Assembly (NCBI GenBank): GCA_903906695.1
Contig: CAIVLG010000037.1
Span: forward strand, 1 to 64,000
DNA length: 64,000 nucleotides
Direction of reading: 5' to 3'
Source: an uncultured beta proteobacterium
Lineage (GTDB): Bacteria > Pseudomonadota > Gammaproteobacteria > Burkholderiales > Burkholderiaceae_C
Shown: positions 1-2,509 of the stretch, piece by piece
Position numbering within the stretch: position 1 is the first letter of the stretch
Layout of the letters: each line of letters starts with the position of its first letter
Program-made: the position numbers and the translations under genes
The notes under the pieces: generated by a model
The model's database searches: none
Told to the model about the DNA's origin: nothing
What the model saw: the letters and a program-made list of their open reading frames with translations, nothing else

Positions 1-81
1 AGTTGAATTTTTGAAAGCCGATTGGCTTTCACCGGTTGTCTCCTCGGGTCCTTTCGTAACCTACAGGTTCAGGGATCCCTT

Positions 82-112
82 AAGGGCTGGTCGCAAGACC
101 AGCCCTTTTTTT
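82..112 (+). terminator. Rho-independent terminator
   Basis: Perfect stem AAGGGCTGGTC-GCAA-GACCAGCCCTT followed by a T-run (TTTTTTT). Confidence 0.85.
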
Positions 113-222
113 CGGGCAGAATGGGTGTTAATAAGCTGATGGCCAAAACCCTAAAGAATCAACGAGTTACGTGATTTTCGGACGGTCAAAAAAGAAAATT
201 AGGCGGGCAATCCCGCAGCATA

Positions 223-1173
223 TTAGGGGGATGCCGCCCCTGACAATTTCACCGCTGTGAGCCACTCCACACCCAGCCAGCCTTTAACCAGAGTCACCAT
301 TACCCGCGAGCCTGGACTTGGGTCCAGCTTCTGCCACTCAGAGTACCGGGTGAAAGACATCTCTACATCCGCTCTTATTTGCCCTGGCATCACGATTGAT
401 GCAAAGTACTTAGTGGGGACGGGACCGGTGGCCTGCTTCCGTAACTTGACGTACTCGACGCTCAGGGTCCGTTCCCCCTCAACGTGTAAGCTGTTGAGCC
501 CATCGACCAACGGCCCAGCCGGCCCAATGAGAAATAGGAAGCAGACCCCCAGGTTCTTCATCGTGGCGCGCCACCTTAATACTGCGTCCGTCGATAGCAA
601 TAGAACCATGCCAGTAGTCGCAGCCAACACCCCACTCGTGAAGAGTAAGCGAAGTTCCCAAGGTGTGCCAAAGACACCCGGTTCCGCGCGCCAAGATTCG
701 GATAGCAAAAACCAGAGCAACAGTAACGCAAACTGCGCGTCCACAAGGTTTGCCAATCTGCCCCGTGGTTTCGTTTGCCCGGTAGAGTCAGCGGGAAGCT
801 TCCCCATCAGGCGGTCCAGGGCGGCAACAAGTTGTGCCATGTCCGACTGCTGCTGTTCATAGTCTTCTTGACGGGGGAACGACCAAGCACCCGACCCAAC
901 CTTTAAGAGGTTATCGCCAAACTTCAGGGAGCGTAGCCCGGGGTTCCGGAGCGCAAAAGCGAGAAACAACTCTCGCACGGGCTGGCTAGCCTTGAATATG
1001 TCCAGTACATCGCTTCGCTGCGTTACCACCCGAAGTCGCCTGTCAAAACGGTCGTCCCCGGTGCTGTTTTTGTTCTTAAGAAACCACCGTATGAAGGGTC
1101 GCGTCTGTGTCACCGTGAAGCTCGCGCGTACGGCGGTTGGGATACCGAGGCCTGCGCCCGGGACTGTGCGCAT
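223..1173 (-). CDS. Hypothetical membrane protein, cargo of the TIR element
   Basis: 316-aa ORF with three hydrophobic segments (FALLLLWFLL, LLFTSGVLAATTGMVLLL, LGVCFLFLIGPAG). No family recognised. Confidence 0.55.
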   Translation of the reverse strand: MRTVPGAGLGIPTAVRASFTVTQTRPFIRWFLKNKNSTGDDRFDRRLRVVTQRSDVLDIFKASQPVRELFLAFALRNPGLRSLKFGDNLLKVGSGAWSFPRQEDYEQQQSDMAQLVAALDRLMGKLPADSTGQTKPRGRLANLVDAQFALLLLWFLLSESWRAEPGVFGTPWELRLLFTSGVLAATTGMVLLLSTDAVLRWRATMKNLGVCFLFLIGPAGPLVDGLNSLHVEGERTLSVEYVKLRKQATGPVPTKYFASIVMPGQIRADVEMSFTRYSEWQKLDPSPGSRVMVTLVKGWLGVEWLTAVKLSGAASP

Positions 1174-1355
1174 TGAGAGCGCTCCATCAAGAACTGCACC
1201 TTCGTCATCTGGTGCTCCAGGCGCGCCTGCTTGGCCCGCAGCCCTGCCAGGGTCACTTCGGCCTTCTCGACAACGCCCGCTAGCGCCGCGCGCTCATTGA
1301 GCAGCCACTTGATGTCGGGAGGGGTGCGCATGCGGGGCGTCGGGGCGGCCACCAT
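1110..1355 (-). CDS. Small coiled-coil-like protein with [17 protein letters not shown] motif
   Basis: ORF within 1110..1475, plausible start [17 protein letters not shown]. Similar to the N-terminus of the adjacent ORF 1294..1980. Confidence 0.4.
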   Translation of the reverse strand: MVAAPTPRMRTPPDIKWLLNERAALAGVVEKAEVTLAGLRAKQARLEHQMTKVQFLMERSQCAQSRAQASVSQPPYARASR

Positions 1356-1980
1356 TTGCTCGTGCCGCCTCATCAACTGCCGCCTTCGCGATTGCTGCGG
1401 CTCGTACCGCAAGGTCCACAAGTGTGGCTGGCTGCTTCCAGCGCCAAACCCCAGGAATTCCGCGAGCCGTGCCATGCAGTGGTTCTACCAAGCGGGCACG
1501 AGCCAGGCAATAGAGCGCTGTCTTCACCGAAGTCCTCAGGCTCCTGCGACTCGATGGGAACGGAAGCGTGAGCTGAAAATGTAGGACCACTTGATTGATG
1601 AGCTGTATCGTGTCCACCGCGGCTGGCGATGCATCCTTCAGTGTTTGTAAGATGAATTGTGTAAGCGCACCGCGCTTGCCGTACTTCCCCGCCCACGCAT
1701 AGACGACACCGCCGGCGCTGGGCTCGACTCGGCTGTATGCAAGCCCGATGCTTGCGTCTAATGCGTCCAGAGTGACCTGATGAGACTCCCGCGCTTCTGC
1801 GCATCGCAACATCAACGCGGTTATTGCATCCACCTTGCGCTGAAGTGCCGCCAACCGAGGGGCCAAAGCCTTTTGGTGAAAGTAGGTTTTGCCGATTTCG
1901 CCCGCAATGGCGGCTCGCTCGTTGAGCAGCCACTTCAAGTCGGGTGGTGTGCGAGTGCGAACGGAGGGGGAATTGGGCAC
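1294..1980 (-). CDS. Hypothetical protein: coiled-coil N-terminus plus possible winged-helix region
   Basis: Longest minus-strand ORF in the element. [20 protein letters not shown] is followed by [28 protein letters not shown]...[36 protein letters not shown]. Start uncertain: GTG at 1980, or an ATG at 2094 inside the right TIR. Confidence 0.45.
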
Positions 1981-2125
1981 GTTGGTAGGGCACGGAGTTG
2001 ACGATACCGCTGTACAGCGACCGACTGTGGCCAAAAAGCCTCGAAAACGGGTGAAATCCGGCGAATTCGGACCTTTGGCCGCAGTTTGGGCCATCAGCTT
2101 ATTAACACCCGGCAGAATCAGCGTG

Positions 2126-2509
2126 ATGAGATTCCTCCACACCATGCTGCGCGTCGGCGACCTGCAACGCTCGATCGACTTTTACACCGGCGTCCTGGGC
2201 ATGCAACTGCTGCGCAAGACCGAGAACCCGGATTACAAATACACGCTGGCTTTTGTCGGTTTCGGCAAAAATCCGGAGCATGCCGAGATCGAACTGACCT
2301 ACAACTGGGGCGTCGATTCGTATGAAATAGGCACCGCCTTTGGGCACCTGGCACTCGGCGTACCTGATGTCTACAGTGCCTGCGAAAAAATCAAGGTGGC
2401 GGGCGGCAAGGTCACGCGCGAAGCCGGCCCCGTCAAAGGTGGCACTACCGTCATTGCATTTGTCACCGACCCCGATGGCTACAAGATTGAACTGATCCAG
2501 CGTCCCTGA
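2126..2509 (+). CDS. gloA: Lactoylglutathione lyase (glyoxalase I)
   Basis: [47 protein letters not shown]...[16 protein letters not shown] is typical GloA. Confidence 0.95.

Follow-up and report, generated by a model that had tools for sequence, protein, structure and literature searches.

Safe-site insertion behind a gene is characteristic of Tn7, which enters attTn7 downstream of glmS, a single sequence-specified site reached through TnsD, and leaves a 5-bp target site duplication (TSD). The element described here, located in a 64,000-nucleotide stretch of DNA (the window), likewise lies behind a gene; in contrast to Tn7, it belongs to a clade with an unrelated transposase and an 8-bp TSD that is found at many unrelated hairpins rather than at one TnsD-specified site. 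Group IIC introns are described, in the part of PMC3522654 that cites Robart 2007, as inserting downstream of Rho-independent terminators. The likeness to these introns is confined to target choice and the window element is not a member, since the introns move by RNA-based retrohoming without target duplication whereas the present family is a DDE DNA transposon with terminal inverted repeats (TIRs) and an 8-bp TSD. No Rfam family, and hence no group II ribozyme, was detected at gathering score within positions 1-2400, and a TSD is present. REP-targeting insertion sequences are DNA transposons that prefer palindromic extragenic targets (PMC1525189); their REP targets are repeated, whereas those described here are single-copy terminators of unrelated sequence. 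Features of the IS1595 family are an N-terminal Cys zinc-binding motif, an 8-bp target duplication and short TIRs (PMC8101967), and no report of IS1595 elements at terminators was found in the open-access literature. The element is an IS1595-family variant with an unexpected target rule, terminator-directed insertion itself being already known for group IIC introns.

The inserted element and its empty site

The element comprises 1,988 bp (window 123-2110) bordered by a perfect 8-bp target duplication. On one side of it is a phasin gene's terminator, on the other a gene starting at 2126, labelled glyoxalase-like by reading the sequence alone. The TIR GGGTGTTAATAAGCTGATGGCC is found at 123-144 on the plus strand and at 2089-2110 on the minus strand and extends to 27 nt, of which 26 are paired. 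No TIR match was obtained in shuffled windows, even allowing three mismatches, and there is no third copy in the 4.42-Mb assembly. The terminator hairpin at 82-107, directly ahead of the element, had been missed in the initial annotation. The features at the two borders are as follows.

82-114, plus strand: target hairpin, an intrinsic terminator AAGGGCTGGTC-GCAA-GACCAGCCCTT followed by a T-run; terminator of the upstream phasin transcription unit
115-122: left copy of the target duplication, GGCAGAAT; single copy in the empty site
123-149, plus strand: left TIR, 27 nt, 26/27 complementary to the right TIR
123-203, plus strand: conserved left end with the AT-rich subterminal stretch AAAACCCTAAAGAATCAA; 94% identity to a 6.6-kb element of the same genus
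2084-2110, minus strand: right TIR, pairing with the left TIR
2111-2118: right copy of the target duplication; one copy in the empty site

The initial annotation took the inverted repeats and the 8-bp duplication as the signature of a DNA transposition event and proposed a search for an uninterrupted ortholog site. The coordinates proved exact, and the uninterrupted site TTCGGGCAGAATCAGCGTG was located at the end of another contig of the same assembly (L107, G000:C248, 2968-3208). There, 122 bases match window 1-122 and 127 bases match window 2111-2237, both at 100% identity and sharing a single GGCAGAAT, with the phasin gene upstream of the empty site. Since the empty site lies on a different contig of the same assembly, the window insertion is recent and polymorphic. 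The empty and filled alleles most probably come from a mixture of strains in which the insertion is recent, the alternative being excision in part of one population.

Autonomous relatives and inner reading frames

In agreement with the initial annotation, the element contains no transposase ORF within 123-2110, and its inner ORFs, compared with Pfam, NCBIfam and PADLOC, gave no family match; it is therefore a derivative and not an insertion sequence. The same annotation had considered IS1595-type machinery and advised a TIR search for copies enclosing a transposase, and both suggestions held when, among 200 relatives, a genome of the same genus (G030) yielded a 6,605-bp element with an IS1595 transposase between the same ends. 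This element shares the left 81 bp (94%) and the right 965 bp (81%) with the window element and has its own 8-bp duplication, TCTGGCTA, at both sides. The transposase of the autonomous relative (412 aa, L014:4838-6076) matches PF12762 (DDE_Tnp_IS1595) with an E value of 4e-27 and the NCBI IS1595 model NF033547 with 97.7 bits against a cutoff of 75. Alignment of 11 relatives revealed invariant Cys pairs C69/C72 and C89/C92 together with invariant D171, D174, D280 and E316; the N-terminal Cys pairs make up the zinc-binding motif and the acidic residues are assigned presumptive catalytic roles. The 8-bp duplications of same-contig end pairs are perfect in 10 of 12 and match at 7/8 positions in the other two. 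Twelve transposase loci were identified in sequenced genomes, mostly of Comamonadaceae-type Burkholderiales.

The closest known counterparts of the clade are those groups of the IS1595 family (ISXO2-like DDE transposases) that have additional genes. It resembles them in its PF12762/NF033547 transposase, zinc-binding Cys motif, 8-bp duplication and short TIRs, and is set apart by the TIR GGGTGTTAWNAAGCTGATGGCC, by a coiled-coil/winged-helix gene present as a duplicated pair, by one more ORF upstream, by sizes of 0.6-23 kb and by hairpin-adjacent insertion. The window element is classed as a transposase-deleted derivative of such an IS1595-family transposon of Comamonadaceae-type Burkholderiales. 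As in MITEs and other transposase-less IS derivatives, it combines the ends and the TSD of an autonomous family with the lack of a transposase, a related autonomous element exists, and the clade includes copies of 0.6-1.9 kb; unlike these, the window copy keeps an intact accessory gene and a foreign segment. The initial annotation proposed mobilisation in trans, which is consistent with a transposase between the same ends in a same-genus genome. A point against the reading is that the mobilising transposase was not found in the element's own assembly, so that we can only infer such mobilisation; the one IS1595-type transposase encoded there, at G000:C91 (L108 170-1180), is a different one, ∼30% identical.

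Full members have in common the transposase, a 164-aa ORF upstream, and either a single accessory gene, here termed KW, or two in tandem, usually near the right end; almost every full relative has these accessory genes beside its transposase. Alignment of 20 relatives and AlphaFold2 modeling defined a KW protein family that combines a long coiled coil with a winged helix and carries the motif (R/K)TPPxxKWLLNE. Homology of the window element to the parent element ends at ∼203 and restarts at ∼1146, giving the following interior.

204-1145: foreign segment where the parent has the transposase region; junctions deduced from the ends of homology
223-1173, minus strand: 316-aa orphan ORF of the foreign segment, beginning with codons of the truncated accessory gene
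1110-1475, minus strand: KW1, first accessory gene, truncated; homologous part ∼1146-1373, 64% identity to residues 1-99 of the KW1 of L014
1294-1980, minus strand: KW2, second accessory gene, intact, 228 aa, GTG start; 75% identical to the G030 copy, which is frameshifted

With KW2 intact, KW1 truncated and ∼204-1145 foreign, the window copy is a deletion derivative; in G030 the situation is reversed, KW1 being intact and KW2 frameshifted. The predicted structure of KW2 (AlphaFold2, mean pLDDT 89.8) has a long coiled coil at residues 13-81 and a winged helix at 105-181, and Foldseek returned generic winged-helix matches only, none below E 1e-3. No relative of the 316-aa ORF was found in 101 genomes, plasmids, Pfam, NCBIfam or PADLOC, and since the ORF opens with codons of the truncated accessory gene, it is probably the C-terminal fragment of some protein without known relatives. 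Downstream of their transposase, distant alphaproteobacterial IS1595 elements frequently have a KW-like gene (HMM E 3e-5 to 3e-3), which suggests that the partnership of KW protein and transposase is probably old.

Several members are far larger than the window copy. The element at L085 1165-12497 (11.3 kb) lacks an IS1595 transposase and keeps the KW pair, with nested IS66-, IS3- and IS21-like transposase ORFs recognised by sequence reading. Very large members of 16-23 kb are G895:C32:14841-37977, G899:C7:225726-245558, G892:C68:12040-28013 and L097.

Insertion sites of the clade

Full, mini and derivative members enter at a set distance, 5-9 nt, beyond the GC stem of a hairpin that is nearly always the intrinsic terminator of a gene; in the window, 9 nt separate the base of the stem from the target duplication. 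The discovery set consisted of 14 end pairs, 12 on the same contig and two across contigs, from elements between 631 bp and 18.5 kb in length. In every one of the 14, a hairpin of -14 kcal/mol or stronger was present immediately outside one end, with 5-9 nt between stem base and duplication (for L014 and L028 the spacing is 9 by inspection, the 17 given by the script resting on a misread stem base). Such a hairpin occurred on either side of 1.8% of random positions, which are mostly coding DNA; the better control is the opposite side of the same insertions, where 1 of 21 had a hairpin at -12 or stronger, the single ends in that count having been sorted by hairpin. Because this sorting makes single ends circular, the evidence is restricted to complete pairs. 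In 13 of the 14 discovery pairs the AT-rich left end is the one turned towards the hairpin, the element at L097 being reversed. In most cases a T-run comes after the hairpin, and the distance back to the stop codon of the closest ORF on the same strand is 41-214 nt, some of these ORFs being mechanical predictions; among the genes upstream are those for phasin, for an OmpA-like protein and, in two cases from different genera, for ribosomal protein S20. The hairpins at L093, L096, the single end L101 and G892 lack a clean T-run, those at L093, L096 and L101 being fully or nearly paired, and therefore the hairpin itself, rather than termination as such, may be what counts for targeting.

Six further pairs, from genomes behind transposase loci, were gathered after the hypothesis had been fixed; their left-end flanks were new, whereas some of the right ends were not. 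The hairpin expected from the hypothesis, of -14.6 to -22.3 kcal/mol, was found at 6-9 nt in five of the six; one of the five is again the phasin-type terminator. In G899 the other side also has a hairpin, of -12.5 and 24 nt off. The remaining pair, in G901 (L154/L155), is an exception without an adjacent hairpin; its joined flanks show the element within the loop of an inverted repeat that is long (roughly 21 bp) and nearly perfect. Among distant alphaproteobacterial IS1595 elements with 8-bp TSDs, several of them with a KW-like gene, none of eight was hairpin-adjacent, and hairpin targeting therefore characterises the GGGTGTTA clade. An order-wide TIR search returned no convincing copy from outside the family, further copies were likewise absent from genus-wide searches centred on two other carriers, and nothing was found in the plasmid collection queried with the element DNA and with KW2 or in viral contigs queried with the transposase and the TIR.

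Some terminators are recurrent hot spots. The phasin-type terminator is occupied in five genomes (the window, L014, L016, L028 and L146/G899) with differing duplications, and the rpsT terminator in two genera (L085 and L092). Window 47-120 gives a weak match to Rfam RF00519 (suhB/mmgR sRNA; 21.3 bits versus a gathering score of 41), and the conserved block at these positions is also present ahead of the phasin terminator of L014, L016 and L028; the 3' region of phasin may encode a small RNA.

Proposed targeting mechanism and alternatives

With a probability of roughly 85%, the element is an IS1595-derived, transposase-deleted copy from a clade that inserts next to hairpins, mobilised in trans and guided by a terminator-recognising factor. 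Precise transposition, IS1595 machinery, the loss of autonomy and insertion next to hairpins have been demonstrated from the sequences; the mechanism that follows is a proposal. An IS1595 transposase supplied in trans would cut and paste the window element, and a factor encoded by the transposon itself (the transposase, the winged-helix KW proteins, or both) would recognise the terminator hairpin, as DNA or RNA, or the RNA-polymerase pause and set strand transfer just downstream of the hairpin. The outcome would be an element in a near-harmless, poorly transcribed site. The more specific proposal of an IS1595-type clade with a general hairpin or terminator selector, probably the duplicated KW proteins, that directs cut-and-paste integration to a constant distance beyond nearly any intrinsic terminator and also serves transposase-less copies in trans is a tentative one, to which we give somewhat less than even odds; a role of the KW proteins as repressor or end-binding factor, instead of target selector, is equally plausible.

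In the initial annotation the element was regarded as cargo between IS ends. This description did not survive, two of the three ORFs being accessory genes of the parent and only ∼204-1145 being foreign, and the label would fit that segment at most. A cargo transposon of the transporter-IS type, with the ORFs as a selected module rather than remnants of a decayed element, would account for the open, intact-looking 316-aa ORF and for the extra genes clearly held by large relatives of 11-23 kb. It is nevertheless unlikely, since that ORF straddles a junction, is without known relatives and sits exactly at the replaced transposase region, and the remaining ORFs are core accessory genes, one of them truncated.

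The location of the insertions might also reflect survival rather than targeting, insertion being random or weakly biased and copies elsewhere lost through harm to the host. The intergenic ground behind terminators is neutral and all sites are downstream of genes, as this explanation would have it; selection, however, leaves unexplained the spacing of 5-9 nt and the 13/14 orientation preference, the same terminators (phasin; rpsT) have been struck repeatedly, and distant IS1595 relatives from other bacteria under the same kind of selection scored 0/8, making survivor bias decidedly improbable. A reading in which the hairpin belongs to the element, or in which the inverted repeats are old host sequence, has practically no probability. 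Filled sites always have hairpin and element together, but the terminator is retained at the empty site on C248 where the element is absent, the hairpin sequences vary by site and belong to different host genes, and the TSDs place the hairpin outside the element.

Targeted insertion by an IS1595-derived clade remains the preferred reading. DNA transposons with a general, structure-based choice of safe sites are few. If confirmed, the clade would be a DNA-transposon parallel to group IIC introns and a natural integration system landing just past genes and leaving them unbroken, and would provide a testable protein pair for tethering a transposase to terminators. Clade copies just past terminators do little damage to the host, and the polymorphism between empty and filled sites suggests that the transposon is currently or was recently active.
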